From positions 1 through 39,766 of the forward strand of contig JACRLQ010000048.1 of NCBI GenBank assembly GCA_016215155.1: a DNA stretch of 39,766 nucleotides. The letters are read 5' to 3'. This document shows, in pieces, positions 5,607-11,417 of the stretch. The notes under the pieces are model-generated. The model searched no databases. It saw only the letters and a list, made by a program, of their open reading frames with translations, and was not told the DNA's origin. Made by a program: the position numbers and the translations under genes. How positions within the stretch are numbered: position 1 is the stretch's first letter; every line of letters starts with the position of its first letter. This DNA comes from Nitrospirota bacterium. Lineage in GTDB: Bacteria > Nitrospirota > Thermodesulfovibrionia > Thermodesulfovibrionales > UBA6898.

Positions 5607-6167
5607 ATGGCAGCCGTGAAAAATAAGAAGCCGGTCCAGTCTGATGTCCGGAAACAGGCGGGGGGGATAAGCATCAGGCGGTTCGTTATAACGTATTTTC
5701 TGCTTATGGGCGGATTTTTCTTCATTATAGGTTTTACTCCCATTCAAAAGATCATAGACGTTGACGGGCTTTATACGAAGGGCGTGGTCGCCGTAACCGC
5801 CGGACTCCTTGGGTTCCTGAGTGTTCCATGCACATATGAGGGGTCTCTCATCCGGCTTCCCTCGATACTGCTTGACGTAAAATTCGGTTGTAACGGCCTT
5901 GAGGCTGTCATGATCTATTCCGTGGCGGTAATCGCTTATCCGTCGGTACTAAGGGACAAACTGATCGGGATTGCCGCCGGGTTTGCCGCGATACAGGTCG
6001 TCAACATAGTGAGGATAGCGGCCTTGGGGTATTCAGGGGTCCACTTCAGGCGCTTCTTTGATTATATCCATATATATGTCGCCCAGGGTCTCATGATAGC
6101 GGTTTCTCTGGGCGTCTTCTTCATCTATCTTAACTATCTGCAGCGCAAAAAAATACCAGGTGTTTAA
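5607..6167 (+). CDS. xrtH: Exosortase H (archaeosortase/exosortase family)
   Basis: This 186-residue polytopic inner-membrane protein has several hydrophobic helices. The exosortase catalytic residues are present: Cys95 in FGCNGLEA, Arg136 in NIVRIAALGY and His155 in YIHIYVAQG. The CNGLEA form, the short length and the following partner gene point to the XrtH subtype, which in other species cuts proteins ending in an IPTLxxWG-type sorting tail. No such tail is visible on any protein in this window, so its substrates lie elsewhere. ATG 5607 has only a weak GGA upstream. The next gene overlaps it by 8 bases. Confidence 0.82.
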   Translation: MAAVKNKKPVQSDVRKQAGGISIRRFVITYFLLMGGFFFIIGFTPIQKIIDVDGLYTKGVVAVTAGLLGFLSVPCTYEGSLIRLPSILLDVKFGCNGLEAVMIYSVAVIAYPSVLRDKLIGIAAGFAAIQVVNIVRIAALGYSGVHFRRFFDYIHIYVAQGLMIAVSLGVFFIYLNYLQRKKIPGV

Positions 6168-6708
6168 AGGGACCGTGTTAAGGACGGTTGTCACATTTCT
6201 GGCGGCCTACCTGCTTTTTCTGGTCCTCTGGATCCAGATCAAAGACTACTATGGCAGAGGGATCACGGTCACGGCGTCAAAGGTCGCAGCCGGCGTCATG
6301 GGCATGAGGTACGAGGAGATGACTATGGAAGGGGAGGTTGTCTGGGCGACCTTCAGTCCTCTTGACAGGCGTTCCGGCGTCCTTTTGGATATACCCGTAA
6401 AAACATCGTCTTATACCTTTAACGCTCCGCTGACTTTTGCCATCATGGCCGCGCTTTATCATTTCATAAACAAAAGAAAGAGGGCCTTTGCCGAGGGGGT
6501 CCTTATTCTGATTCTGGTACATCTGGTTTATGTCGTCTCGCTCGAAGCAAAGGAACTGGCTGAGGTGATGATGGACAGGGGGCTCCAGGCGAAGGGAAAT
6601 TCCGGAATATTTATAATGCAGTTCATCTTGGGTTTTACTGAAAATATGGTCATAAGATTCGAGCCCTTTTTGATCGGATTTTATATCTACATGAAGTTTA
6701 GAAAGTAG
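6160..6708 (+). CDS. Exosortase H-associated membrane protein
   Basis: This 182-residue protein has an N-terminal helix (about residues 5-24), a periplasmic-looking segment of about 60 residues, and further hydrophobic helices near 92-104, 113-129 and 150-180. I recognise the general layout of the membrane protein that accompanies XrtH, but there are no catalytic motifs to confirm it. It starts at GTG 6160, within the end of the exosortase gene, implying coupled translation. A role as accessory or docking partner in sorting is inferred from context. Confidence 0.65.
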   Translation: MFKGTVLRTVVTFLAAYLLFLVLWIQIKDYYGRGITVTASKVAAGVMGMRYEEMTMEGEVVWATFSPLDRRSGVLLDIPVKTSSYTFNAPLTFAIMAALYHFINKRKRAFAEGVLILILVHLVYVVSLEAKELAEVMMDRGLQAKGNSGIFIMQFILGFTENMVIRFEPFLIGFYIYMKFRK

Positions 6709-6991: not shown

Positions 6992-8239
6992 ATGAAGGTC
7001 CTTTTAATCAATCCCAATCGGTATCTGCATCCTCCTGTCCCGCCGATCGGACTTGAGATGATAGCCGGAGACCTCACAGCTTCCGGTCATGAGGTCAGGC
7101 TTCTGGACCTTTGTTTCAATCCTGATCCGGTTAATGCCCTGGATAGTACGATCAGTCAGTTCATGCCGGATCTGGCAGGGATCACGGTCAGAAATGCCGA
7201 CACCGTCCTTTATGACTCAAATGAATTTTTTCTCGATGATATCAGGTCGCTGATAGGTCATATCAAGGCCAAATCCGGACTTTTTACGGTAATCGGAGGC
7301 GCTGCCGCTGCTATAGACCCCGATGGAATTTGCGACTACCTGGGCGCTGATGCAGTTGTTTCAGGACCGGGCGAAGGTGTCATGAACGGGATAATAAACA
7401 GCCTTTCATCTTCCGGAGGCCGTCAAAAGATCTGGACCAGGGAACATACTTATTCGATCCCCTGCCTCCGGAGATCAGAGTGGGTCGATTATAAGAAATA
7501 TATCGGCGAGGGGGGGATTGCCGGGTTCGAGACCCATAGGGGATGCAGTTCCTCATGCATATACTGCACAGAGGCTAACACAAAGGTCTCCTTCAGGGAA
7601 ATCCCGGAGGTAATAGGTCAGATAAGGGGATTTTCGGATTGCGGCATCACCCGGTTTCATTTATGCGATTCTGAATTCAACGAAGACACTGATTATTCCA
7701 TGGAATTTCTGAAGGCCCTTATAAAGACCGGACCTTCCATCGATTGGGCGGTCTATATGAAACCGGCAGGCCACAGCCGGAGGCTGGTTCAGTTGATGAA
7801 GTCCTCGGGCGTATCCTTGATCACCCTTACGGTAGATTCGTGGAAGAAATGCCCGCTTTACTGGGGCGAAATAGAAAAGATGATATTCAGCGCAAAATCG
7901 TCTGGGATAAGGATCGTCGTCGATTTTCTGACCGGGTTTCCATATGAGGACGAAGATACGCTGAAATTTTATCTTGATCTGTTTCGGAGACTGCTGCCGG
8001 ACAGCGTCGGGATCAATACTTACATACGCCTGTATAAGACCCTGCAGGTCACGTCCATCATCAGGAGGGACCCGTCTTTAATGTCAAGGCTCTCGGGAAG
8101 TCTTGAAGACCCTTCAATGATTCATCCGGTGTTTTATAACCATATGGATTCCGGAAGGCTTCGCGAACTCATAGACGGCGATCCGATATTCAGGATCGAG
8201 GGCAGGGACAAAGGCGTAAACTATACGAGGAACAACTAA
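6992..8239 (+). CDS. B12-binding-type radical SAM protein
   Basis: This 415-residue protein begins MKVLLINPNRYLHPPVPPIG, the start of an N-terminal cobalamin-binding-like Rossmann domain (about 1-140) without a DxHxxG motif, as in class B radical SAM methylases. The radical SAM cluster motif is CSSSCIYC with Cys185, Cys189 and Cys192, after GFETHRG. The rest is a partial TIM barrel and a C-terminal tail. Enzymes of this kind methylate or rearrange unactivated carbons, including hopanoid and other lipid carbons. It is followed after 5 bp by a lycopene-cyclase-like gene and then a prenyl synthase fusion, so an isoprenoid substrate is likely but inferred. No clear ribosome-binding site is seen. 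Confidence 0.85.
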   Translation: MKVLLINPNRYLHPPVPPIGLEMIAGDLTASGHEVRLLDLCFNPDPVNALDSTISQFMPDLAGITVRNADTVLYDSNEFFLDDIRSLIGHIKAKSGLFTVIGGAAAAIDPDGICDYLGADAVVSGPGEGVMNGIINSLSSSGGRQKIWTREHTYSIPCLRRSEWVDYKKYIGEGGIAGFETHRGCSSSCIYCTEANTKVSFREIPEVIGQIRGFSDCGITRFHLCDSEFNEDTDYSMEFLKALIKTGPSIDWAVYMKPAGHSRRLVQLMKSSGVSLITLTVDSWKKCPLYWGEIEKMIFSAKSSGIRIVVDFLTGFPYEDEDTLKFYLDLFRRLLPDSVGINTYIRLYKTLQVTSIIRRDPSLMSRLSGSLEDPSMIHPVFYNHMDSGRLRELIDGDPIFRIEGRDKGVNYTRNN

Positions 8240-8244
8240 ACCAT

Positions 8245-8982
8245 ATGATGGATGTCCTGAGGACCCATCCCTATTTTTTCGCTAACCTTCCGTTGATGGT
8301 TGTCGTGCTGACCTTGGTCAGGTCCAGTCTTTCGAGGGAGAGCGCCAAATGGGCCTACGCCAGCGGCTTATTCTGCATACCCTGTTGTTTACTGTCTGTC
8401 GCCCACGAGATCGATTACTGGAGTCCGGTCCGCCTGGGTGGGATACTGCCGGGCCTTGAGGACATCATGTTCTGTATTCTTGCAGGGATGCTGTCATGGC
8501 TGGCCTCGGCATGGAGTCTTGGCAGCCGCCTTGAGATGTCATTCAGGTTGGCCACCGCTCTACGAAGGTATTTTATTTTTGGTCTTCTTTTTTCAGCCCT
8601 GTTTTCGGTTCTCCATTTATGCGGCATGTCTTCCATGACCATTACGGTTTTATTGACTGCTGCAGGCCTTGTCGGACTGTTGATTTTAAGAAGGGGGCTT
8701 CTGATCCTTGCGATTTCCGGTTCTGCCTGTTTTTTTCCCTTCTATGTCGCTATAGTATTTGTCCAATTCAGAGTCTGGCCGGATTATGTTATGTCCTGGT
8801 ACCCTGACGGTATTTGGGGACAAAGAGTTCTGGGCTTGCCCTTCGGCGAGCTTGTGTGGGCCCCGGCCTTTGCCGCCTTCTGGCCGGTATTCATGGCCTA
8901 TGTTTGGGAAGCGCGCGTCAATGAAGCAGGAATGTCTTCGGTAATGGGTTCCAAACCGGGAATATCGGGGAGATTTGTTTAG
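8245..8982 (+). CDS. Lycopene-cyclase-domain-like membrane protein
   Basis: This 245-residue, strongly hydrophobic protein has about seven membrane helices. Two segments resemble the repeat of CrtYcd/CarR-type lycopene cyclases, which ends in a WS..R.LG..LP.EE..F pattern: DYWSPVRLGGILPGLEDIMF near residue 57 and GQRVLGLPFGELVW near 193. The acidic pair is LED in the first and GEL in the second, so catalytic details may differ. It overlaps the following fusion gene by 8 bases. Cyclisation of an isoprenoid chain is the natural guess. A distant homologue with another isoprenoid-related role is also possible. Confidence 0.55.
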   Translation: MMDVLRTHPYFFANLPLMVVVLTLVRSSLSRESAKWAYASGLFCIPCCLLSVAHEIDYWSPVRLGGILPGLEDIMFCILAGMLSWLASAWSLGSRLEMSFRLATALRRYFIFGLLFSALFSVLHLCGMSSMTITVLLTAAGLVGLLILRRGLLILAISGSACFFPFYVAIVFVQFRVWPDYVMSWYPDGIWGQRVLGLPFGELVWAPAFAAFWPVFMAYVWEARVNEAGMSSVMGSKPGISGRFV

Positions 8983-11158
8983 CGTGGCAAGCGACTCTCT
9001 AATAGTCGACGAATCTTCGCACCCTGGCAGCCCTATCGAATGGTGGTTCGTGCAGGGTTATTTCGAGGGAGACAGTCCGGGCCGGCATTATTTTATGGCG
9101 ACCCTTTTCCGATATGCAGGACAGACCATTTCAGATGGTGAAGCAGACGGGTTCTCCTTCATTCTGTCGGTGATCGGCCCTGGAGAGGACCGTCACGAGA
9201 GCCTGAGTCAGATCGACCCGAAAGTTGTCGAGCTGCTGAGTCACGCGTCCGGCCGTAAGGGAGGTCTCAACATTGACGCCCATATTATGAACGAATATAT
9301 CAAGGAAGTCCGCGCCTGCGGTCCCCCCAGGCCGATCAGGCTTGAGACTTCAGTCCCCTCTATGAAAGACGACCCGCTCCATCTAACATGGAATGACTTC
9401 TCATTGGCTCAGGACAAAGATAGCTTCCGCATATCGTTTCTGGGACCGAAATCCCGCCGCAGGTGTGATTTCATTCTCAGGCCTGTCAGCCCGCCAATGA
9501 GGGTCGATGCCTTAAATATACCCTTACTTAAGGAAGTCCGTTACAGGACCTATCCCAGGCTGGAACTCACCGGCAGGGCGGGCTCGAAGAAGGTGACAGG
9601 GCAGGCGTGGCTGGACCACCAATGGGGAGATCTGAGGGGCTGGTTTTATTCGGGGCATTCAAAGGGCCGCGTCCTCGGCTGGGACTGGTTCGCAATAAAC
9701 CTCGAAAATGGCGACGACTGGATGGTGATGGTCCACAGGGATATGAAAAGCGGGCGTGTCGTTGCGAAGTATGCCGTTGTGCGCAAAAAGGGAGGAAATC
9801 CGCGCCTGTACAACGCTGTGACTGCCGAGTCCCTAAGACAATGGGTAAGCAGAGAGACGCGAATCAGCTATCCCATTTCGTGGAGCATCAAAATTCCGGA
9901 AATCAGGGCCGCGCTGACCTTCGAACCTCTCGCCGACAATCAGGAGATCCCGATCTTTGGCTTCATGCGCGCAATATGGGAAGGGGCCGGAACGGTCTCG
10001 GGCGCGCTTGACGGTAAGGCGATAAGGGGATGGGCCAGGCTCGAACTGCATGGCTATGGGTATATCTTCGATTTTCAGAAATACACCGCGCCTCTCGTCA
10101 GGAGCGTCGATGACTGCATAGAACGTTTCCTGCCCAGGGAGTTCGACAATGCGCGACATCTCATATACGCCGGAGCGGACTCATGGCGTCAGGAGCCTGC
10201 GGCATATGAAGCCATACTTTCAGAGCCCATATGGGACCTGGTCTCGCGTAAAGGGAAACGCTGGCGGCCCCTTTTTGGTTTCCTCATGACCGAGACTCTT
10301 GGCGTAAGTTTCGAGCCTTACGAAATGCTCCTGTCAGTCATACCCGAGTTGTGTCACACCGGCGCATTGATTATAGATGACATTGAAGACGGCTCGATAA
10401 TCAGACGCGGGACGGACTGCGTGCATATTCGTTATGGTCTCGACGTTGCGCTCAATGCCGCCAATACGGTCTATTTCCTTCCTTATCTGCTGCTGGCTGA
10501 CCATCCGCTTCTTTCCACCGTTCAGCGGCTGGACATGTATCGACTCATGATCGAAGATATGGTCCGCTCCCACCTTGGACAGGGTCTTGACATCTTCCGG
10601 TCGAGAAACCTTACTGAGGCAAATCTGCGAAGATGGCGCAAAAGCGGGTTGAAACGGAAGATACTCCAGATGTATGAATATAAGACCTCGACCCCGCTGG
10701 AGTCGGCGGCGAAGTTCGCCTGCATCATCGCCAATGCCGACGAAGCGGTAAGACATGCCAGCGGGTCTTTTGCAAAGGTCTTCGGCACAGCATTCCAGAT
10801 CATCGACGATGTCCATAACTTCAGTGAGTCCCGTGCCTGGCGCAAGACACCGGGCGAAGATATCTCGTCCGGAAAACTTACGTATGTGACCTTAAGGGCG
10901 ATTGAGCTTCTAAAGGACAAAGACAGTCTCAGGCTTCAAAAGATTCTGTGTTCAAAAATGCTGAGGGAAGACCCCTCTGTCCTGAGGGAAGCAATCGGCC
11001 TTGTAAGAGGGTCGGGGGCCCTTCGTCTGTGCCAACAGGATGCCGGGGCCATGGTGGAAAGGGAATGGAAACGTTTTTCAGCGAGTGTCCCTCCCTCAGA
11101 GTCAAAAACGATGCTTCGCATCCTTTGCGCGCGCCTTCTCGACGTGCAGGCCCTTTGA
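8975..11158 (+). CDS. CrtC/AttH-like hydratase domain fused to a prenyl diphosphate synthase
   Basis: This is a 727-residue two-domain protein. Residues 1 to about 385 resemble the CrtC (carotenoid 1,2-hydratase)/AttH lipocalin-like family: HPGSPIEWWFVQG at the start, AWLDHQWGDLRGWFYSG and VLGWDWFAINL in the middle, and IWEGAGTVSG with ELHGYGY at the end. Residues from about 385 are a trans-prenyltransferase: GKRWRP, first Asp-rich motif IIDDIEDGSIIRRG, GQGLDI, and second motif FQIIDDVHN. The DDIEDxSxxRRG and DDxxN forms resemble eukaryotic geranylgeranyl diphosphate synthases. TTG 8975 overlaps the previous gene; GTG 8984, about 10 bases after GGGGAGA, is an equally good start. One polypeptide could both build and hydrate or bind an isoprenoid. 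Confidence 0.8.
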   Translation: MFSVASDSLIVDESSHPGSPIEWWFVQGYFEGDSPGRHYFMATLFRYAGQTISDGEADGFSFILSVIGPGEDRHESLSQIDPKVVELLSHASGRKGGLNIDAHIMNEYIKEVRACGPPRPIRLETSVPSMKDDPLHLTWNDFSLAQDKDSFRISFLGPKSRRRCDFILRPVSPPMRVDALNIPLLKEVRYRTYPRLELTGRAGSKKVTGQAWLDHQWGDLRGWFYSGHSKGRVLGWDWFAINLENGDDWMVMVHRDMKSGRVVAKYAVVRKKGGNPRLYNAVTAESLRQWVSRETRISYPISWSIKIPEIRAALTFEPLADNQEIPIFGFMRAIWEGAGTVSGALDGKAIRGWARLELHGYGYIFDFQKYTAPLVRSVDDCIERFLPREFDNARHLIYAGADSWRQEPAAYEAILSEPIWDLVSRKGKRWRPLFGFLMTETLGVSFEPYEMLLSVIPELCHTGALIIDDIEDGSIIRRGTDCVHIRYGLDVALNAANTVYFLPYLLLADHPLLSTVQRLDMYRLMIEDMVRSHLGQGLDIFRSRNLTEANLRRWRKSGLKRKILQMYEYKTSTPLESAAKFACIIANADEAVRHASGSFAKVFGTAFQIIDDVHNFSESRAWRKTPGEDISSGKLTYVTLRAIELLKDKDSLRLQKILCSKMLREDPSVLREAIGLVRGSGALRLCQQDAGAMVEREWKRFSASVPPSESKTMLRILCARLLDVQAL

Positions 11159-11193: not shown

Positions 11194-11227
11194 GCTCTCG
11201 TAAATTATATATAAAATTTACGAGAGC
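11194..11227. terminator. Hairpin after the fusion gene
   Basis: A perfect 13-bp stem (11194-11206 with 11215-11227) around an 8-base AT loop lies 35 bp after the stop codon. There is no T-run, so it may be a processing or weak bidirectional terminator hairpin instead of a classic intrinsic one. Confidence 0.5.
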
Positions 11228-11234
11228 CCTACCG

Positions 11235-11391
11235 GGCTGTTGAAAAAGTGTTTTCAGATGTTTTCCGTCATTCCCGTGCAGACGGGAATCCATTGTTTCT
11301 AAGGCGTTTGGATACCCGCCTTCGCCAACAGTAGGTGCCTTAAGCACGAGTATGACGGCTCTAACTGACGAATGAGAGTTTTTCAACAGCC
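11235..11391. mobile_element. MITE-like element with REP-like palindromes inside
   Basis: The ends are GGCTGTTGAAAAA (11235-11247) and its exact inverse TTTTTCAACAGCC (11379-11391), 157 bp in total with no gene. Inside are a REP-like palindrome (ATTCCCGT-GCAG-ACGGGAAT, 11270-11289) and a second one (11310-11358) whose loop holds the CCAACAGTAGG...CCTTAAGC insert. Size, inverted ends and lack of coding capacity fit a non-autonomous element. No transposase is in view. Confidence 0.6.
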
Positions 11392-11417
11392 TGCTAAACC
11401 CGTAAAAATGTTTTAAG

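Follow-up and report, generated by a model that had tools for sequence, protein, structure and literature searches.

Closest described systems

CrtYcd-type lycopene cyclases are known as carotenoid enzymes. The protein of PDB 8v0f is a fungal bifunctional copalyl diphosphate synthase, which carries a prenyl synthase and a class II cyclase in one chain. Both lycopene and C12-C20 terpenes are hydrated by CrtC at the terminal double bond (PMC12402844), and work on mutants of this enzyme identified D268 as the proton donor and W283/W285 as cation-stabilising residues (PMC4717167, PMC12402844). Kievitone hydratase adds water to a prenyl group at its terminal double bond (PMC5805349), and AttH-type proteins are associated with (ABC) transporters (PMC2954199).

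The locus described here brings relatives of these enzymes together. Every domain is known, and searches of open-licence papers found no description of a fusion between a lipocalin and a prenyl synthase, or of its pairing with a lycopene cyclase relative; nor did those searches yield a pathway built from these parts, as a first-pass annotation of the same DNA had supposed. The locus lies in a window of 39,766 nt, the whole stretch of DNA analysed, and has the following features.

6992-8239, + strand: B12-binding radical-SAM protein, 415 aa (ORF call, domain profiles)
8240-8244, + strand: 5-bp gap from the radical-SAM stop to the ATG of the lycopene-cyclase-like gene; gene order breaks here relative to relatives (sequence, neighbourhood comparison)
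8245-8982, + strand: lycopene-cyclase-like (CrtYcd/PF18916-related) integral membrane protein, 245 aa (profiles, alignments, hydropathy)
8975-11158, + strand: fusion of an AttH/CrtC lipocalin to a polyprenyl synthase, 727 aa if it starts at TTG 8975, 724 aa if at GTG 8984 (ORF call, profiles)
9035-10063, + strand: predicted CrtC/AttH two-barrel domain of the fusion, about residues 21-363 (alignment, predicted fold)
10205-11149, + strand: polyprenyl synthase domain of the fusion, about residues 411-725 (profile, motifs)
11194-11227, no strand assigned: palindrome with 17-bp arms, a terminator-like hairpin 3' of the fusion gene (sequence)
11230-11396, no strand assigned: MITE-like element with 18-bp inverted ends GCTGTTGAAAAA, adjoining the two-gene module (sequence)

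The first-pass annotation placed three same-strand genes at 6992-11158, and the open frames fall exactly at 6992-8239, 8245-8982 and 8975-11158. Its gene identities (radical SAM, lycopene-cyclase-like, CrtC/AttH-prenyl synthase fusion) agree with the domain profiles, its isoprenoid theme is supported, and the 5-bp junction between the radical-SAM and membrane-protein genes is real. The 8-base overlap that it reported exists only if the fusion starts at TTG 8975; a start at GTG 8984, which is preceded by GGGGAG and is at least as good, leaves a 1-bp gap. GC content and codon use of the membrane-protein and fusion genes are near those of neighbouring genes and give no clear sign that the pair is foreign.

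The lipocalin-polyprenyl synthase fusion

Profile searches place the N-terminal half of the fusion in the CrtC/AttH family (PF07143/PF17186), with 36 bits and E 1.4e-8 for CrtC (cut-off 22.5) and 80.6 bits and E 1.5e-22 for Lipocalin_9 (cut-off 26.2). This half carries the motifs EWWF, W212-L-D214-H-Q-W-G, G-W236-D-W238 and WEG. A structural model built with four sequences, with pLDDT mostly 60-90 except at residues 89-133 and some loops, predicts the two-barrel fold of the family. The model matched AttH (NE1406, PDB 2ich) with Z 29.6 and rmsd 3.2 over 293 residues, kievitone hydratase (7a0t) with Z 26.5, a 25-phosphosteroid lyase (9g4c) with Z 20.5 and the CghA/Fsa2/Phm7 pericyclases with Z of about 18. 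To judge by its name and ligand, the phosphosteroid lyase acts on the isoprenoid terminus of a steroid's side chain. AttH is the closest solved relative of this half by sequence and predicted fold; unlike the fusion, it is a stand-alone protein of unknown function without a synthase domain.

Alignment with Roseobacter litoralis CrtC pairs D214 and W236/W238 with the 'YFD' and 'YWTW' segments, that is, with D268 and W283/W285. The acid Asp and both Trp residues are kept, Y266 is replaced by W, and the essential H239 and W241 are not kept; the full set of an active CrtC-type hydratase (the essential four, H239, W241, Y266 and D268, plus W283/W285) is therefore incomplete, and with H239 and W241 gone hydration may be lost. 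The acid Asp and the Trp pair recur in most fusions. In its predicted fold, acid residue and W-x-W motif the lipocalin half thus resembles CrtC and kievitone hydratase, from which it differs in the residues lost, in its fusion to a polyprenyl synthase and in a host without a carotenoid synthase.

The C-terminal half matches polyprenyl_synt with E 6.7e-46 and 157 bits and holds the complete motif set of a trans-polyprenyl diphosphate synthase: GKxWRP, DDIED, RRG, YKT and FQIIDDVHN. The last Asp of the second Asp motif (DDVHN) is replaced by Asn, which is common in these fusions. Small residues, HTGAL, precede DDIED and faintly recall enzymes that make chains longer than C15. The structure model is poor in this half, and no claims rest on that part. 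A search matched this half to the synthase domain of PDB 8v0f, which has in common with the role proposed here that the enzyme making the chain is physically coupled to a partner that modifies the far end by proton-initiated chemistry; the partner there is a class II cyclase, whereas here its place would go to a lipocalin domain, in cis, together with a membrane protein, in trans.

The lycopene-cyclase-like membrane protein

The product of 8245-8982 scores below the curated cut-off of Lycopene_cyc (PF18916), at E 0.0084 and 17.1 bits against 27. It was compared with two PF18916 proteins, one encoded in the same genome on contig C60 (43 bits), the other from a different family within the phylum. 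The hhalign comparison gave E 1.7e-5 and a probability of 79% over 179 columns, and pairwise z-scores were 3.3-5.3, where three membrane proteins used as controls scored -0.6 to 1.6. At the level of remote homology, the protein is thus a relative of the CrtYc/CrtYd-type cyclases along most of its length. It keeps DYWxP (as DYWSP), GLED and PxxEL, and in an alignment with three members, whose acidic site consists of PxEE and the ED of the first repeat, GLED is conserved and LPFGEL retains one of the two Glu residues of PxEE. Hydropathy indicates many membrane segments. A single-sequence structure model (pLDDT 50) was unusable, and PDB matches, at E 0.1 and above, were taken as chance. The protein is a candidate proton-initiated cyclase.

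Phytoene and squalene synthases (PF00494) gave no match in the whole genome, estimated at 100% completeness, nor in four congeners, and the same search found matches in 7 of 14 control genomes. The first-pass observation that no phytoene synthase lies nearby therefore widens to the genome and its congeners, and the enzyme that would mark a C40 carotenoid pathway or carotenoid cluster is missing. Since PF00494 is absent, neither the membrane protein nor its C60 paralogue can have lycopene from the usual route as its substrate. The paralogue (L063:9220-9945, 241 aa), above the Pfam cut-off, lies next to mfd-like and rfaE-like genes and is also without a carotenoid neighbour.

Apart from a 57-residue match in genome G089 (E 6e-4), taken as chance, the membrane protein was found in no other of 296 phylum genomes searched, congeners included. 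Relatives were found neither in plasmids by tblastn nor in viral contigs by a pattern scan. Weak matches to the lycopene cyclase family in G003, G013 and G096 were also attributed to chance; those in G003 and G013 lie in ORFs that look cytochrome-assembly-like by sequence.

The radical-SAM gene and the break in gene order

The product of 6992-8239 matches the B12-binding (1.5e-12) and Radical_SAM (8e-8) profiles and contains the CxxxCxxC motif as GCSSSCIYC. Its nearest named model is TIGR04072, the ladderane-type family, at 169.9 bits against a curated cut-off of 360. Beyond this low score, it differs from the ladderane-cluster protein in that its neighbourhoods showed no ladderane or fatty-acid genes. 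Orthologues with 46-64% identity are present in nine other genomes (10 of 198 phylum genomes, its own included), among them two congeners and one other genome of the same family.

Neighbourhood BLAST of the nine orthologue-bearing genomes found the membrane protein and the fusion beside the radical-SAM gene in none of them. In the congeners G124 and G186 the gene is followed by hpt, PTPS-like, tldD-like and alcohol-dehydrogenase-like genes, named from sequence, and in G186 it lies near obg, as it does here. The hpt block of this genome sits on another contig (C98). Because hpt follows the radical-SAM gene in two relatives and lies elsewhere here, the rearrangement break falls immediately 3' of that gene, and what fills it is the membrane-protein and fusion pair together with the hairpin and the MITE-like element. 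The other gene of the lycopene cyclase family in this genome has a second copy of the element (L063:10087-10223, 81% identity) immediately downstream, and the placement of copies downstream of both such genes may be a coincidence.

The gene at 6992-8239 is therefore a resident gene of the lineage and probably stands outside the acquired module. The first-pass annotation read the three genes as one set, and named as contrary evidence the finding that they are not neighbours in related genomes; for the radical-SAM gene this is what was found, since it occurs in 10 of 198 phylum genomes and has the other two beside it only here. Its proposed three-step pathway, in which an isoprenoid is made, cyclised or hydrated, and methylated, loses its support, as the radical-SAM orthologues occur without the other two genes and the pair lies at a rearrangement break. 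A later recruitment of the radical-SAM gene to the pathway is possible and has no support of its own.

Several further observations concern this gene and its surroundings. Between obg and the radical-SAM gene, positions 5607-6708 encode an exosortase H (XrtH, 89.6 bits, cut-off 86) and an XrtH-associated membrane protein (NF041730); G186 has a different ORF in their place. Elsewhere in the order, genomes have the radical-SAM orthologue adjoining or overlapping a gene similar to methyltetrahydrofolate:corrinoid methyltransferases (L068:8037-8819, L067:9925-10770 and L066:10113-10922), a resemblance that was tested for L068 and judged by sequence for L067 and L066; it is a possible clue to the methyl source of the radical-SAM protein. 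The orthologue in G186 (L072:9016-9861, 281 aa) has lost the B12-binding domain.

The fusion family in other genomes

Among 396 genomes of the phylum, congeners included, this is the one genome in which the search turned up the complete fusion protein. Full-length homologues with 40-43% identity occur in three other MAGs, on contigs labelled Verrucomicrobia, Omnitrophota and Planctomycetaceae. More distant ones come from one further genome each of Verrucomicrobia and Planctomycetes and from Streptomyces canus and Tolypothrix PCC 7601, where they are plasmid-borne, and a Nitrosomonas stercoris plasmid carries a relative whose lipocalin half is eroded. In a viral collection, a single stretch of contig gave a match to the fusion and yielded no locus. 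The family is rare and scattered, and its homologues mark the architecture as conserved and not the product of an assembly accident. The pair of membrane protein and fusion is found in this genome only; because no other genome links the two proteins, their coupling rests on adjacency.

The neighbours of the fusion change from genome to genome. In L002 and L004 a squalene-hopene-cyclase-like (class II) gene overlaps the end of the fusion gene by about 40 bp. These two contigs, labelled Verrucomicrobia and Planctomycetaceae, share 82% DNA identity over 4 kb and were counted as one lineage; one of them may be misbinned. The class II acid motif of their cyclases reads DTDAD, T or A standing in for the last Asp of DxDD, and drimenol synthases have DxDTT, in which the middle Asp is the acid (PMC9128629). 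Next to the fusion, L003, L004, L043, L039 and L040 carry MacB/FtsX permease genes, ABC ATPase genes or both, in keeping with the transporter association of AttH, and in L042 a relative has an HMG-CoA-synthase gene and a family-28 glycosyltransferase beside it. On the Tolypothrix PCC 7601 plasmid (L040:7352-11881), sulfotransferase, glycosyltransferase, CrtC/AttH and polyprenyl synthase domains form one chain of 1509 aa, and the gene adjoins DevC and other ABC transporter genes.

Proposed function and alternative readings

The best explanation is that the functional unit is the pair at 8245-11158 and not the trio. In the order that we infer, the synthase half of the fusion would join IPP units to give a linear prenyl diphosphate with a chain length of probably at least C20; the lipocalin half would bind the far (omega) isoprene end of the chain; the membrane protein would protonate this end and close a ring; and the lipocalin half would hydrate, hand over or finish the product. 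The product would probably be a modified, envelope-bound or exported isoprenoid, by analogy with the related lineage in which a squalene-hopene-type cyclase of class II is the neighbour, and with the ABC exporters and glycosyl- and sulfotransferases found elsewhere. As a whole, the proposal that the fusion makes the chain and engages its far end for the membrane protein to protonate and cyclise is tentative, with a likelihood somewhat short of even. The fusion homologues in other genomes, the cyclase overlap in L002/L004, the ABC genes beside the fusion, the fold matches of the lipocalin half, the kept D214 and W236/W238, the lack of PF00494, the tight junction and the lycopene cyclase homology argue for it; the loss of H239/W241 and of one PxEE Glu, the restriction of the pair to one genome, the link between AttH and transporters, the single lineage behind the two cyclase-bearing contigs and the weakness of the HTGAL residues as a sign of chain length count against it.

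The main rival, which we hold rather unlikely, turns on lipid handling: the lipocalin half would only bind or hand over a prenyl lipid, the synthase would make a lipid carrier, and the membrane protein would be non-catalytic or act otherwise. AttH-type proteins accompany ABC transporters (PMC2954199), and such a role would fit the permease and ATPase genes that flank five of the fusion loci, the loss of the two CrtC residues, and a second PF18916 protein that has no carotenoid neighbour either. It sits less well with the class II cyclase gene that overlaps the fusion gene, with the acid Asp and Trp pair kept in most fusions, and with the pair itself, beside which the window holds no ABC gene. 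Decay offers another reading, in which the pair is the remnant of a horizontally acquired fragment whose pathway no longer works. That it turned up in a single genome of the genus, where it lies at a rearrangement break with a MITE-like element alongside, would suit such a remnant, yet all frames are intact, the synthase motifs are complete, and GC content and codon use are near those of the neighbouring genes, which makes decay quite unlikely.

Very unlikely is a three-gene pathway in which the B12/radical-SAM enzyme methylates an isoprenoid made and cyclised by the other two proteins. The genes share a strand, with a 5-bp gap followed by an overlap or a 1-bp gap, and TIGR04072 is a lipid-biosynthesis family; against this stand the nine genomes with orthologues but without the other two genes, the displaced hpt, a score far under the TIGR04072 cut-off, and the fusion homologues elsewhere, which have no such radical-SAM neighbour at the loci examined. 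Family names alone, together with the second PF18916 protein above cut-off, would suggest a dispersed carotenoid pathway, with the membrane protein as lycopene cyclase, the lipocalin half as carotenoid hydratase and the remaining crt genes elsewhere. That, or a dispersed squalene pathway, is nearly excluded by the absence of PF00494 from a 100%-complete genome and four congeners in a search whose controls worked.

Implications for the two families

Returning to the cyclisation proposal, its broader form would have a membrane protein of the lycopene cyclase family act as a terpene cyclase, its substrate a linear prenyl (diphosphate) chain and its host a bacterium free of carotenoids. The chain maker would bring its own lipocalin domain for the far end, and unrelated proton-initiated cyclases, of the class II or the lycopene cyclase type, could be swapped beside it. 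This wider claim is unlikely as it stands. CrtYcd-type members in genomes without phytoene synthase suggest a role for this family beyond carotenoids. The fusion, present in several phyla, is predicted to couple the making of the chain with proton chemistry at its opposite end. A bacterium that has neither carotenoid nor squalene synthase, and in which two coupled genes probably build a linear isoprenoid and then hydrate or ring-close its far end, hints at an undescribed lipid pathway.
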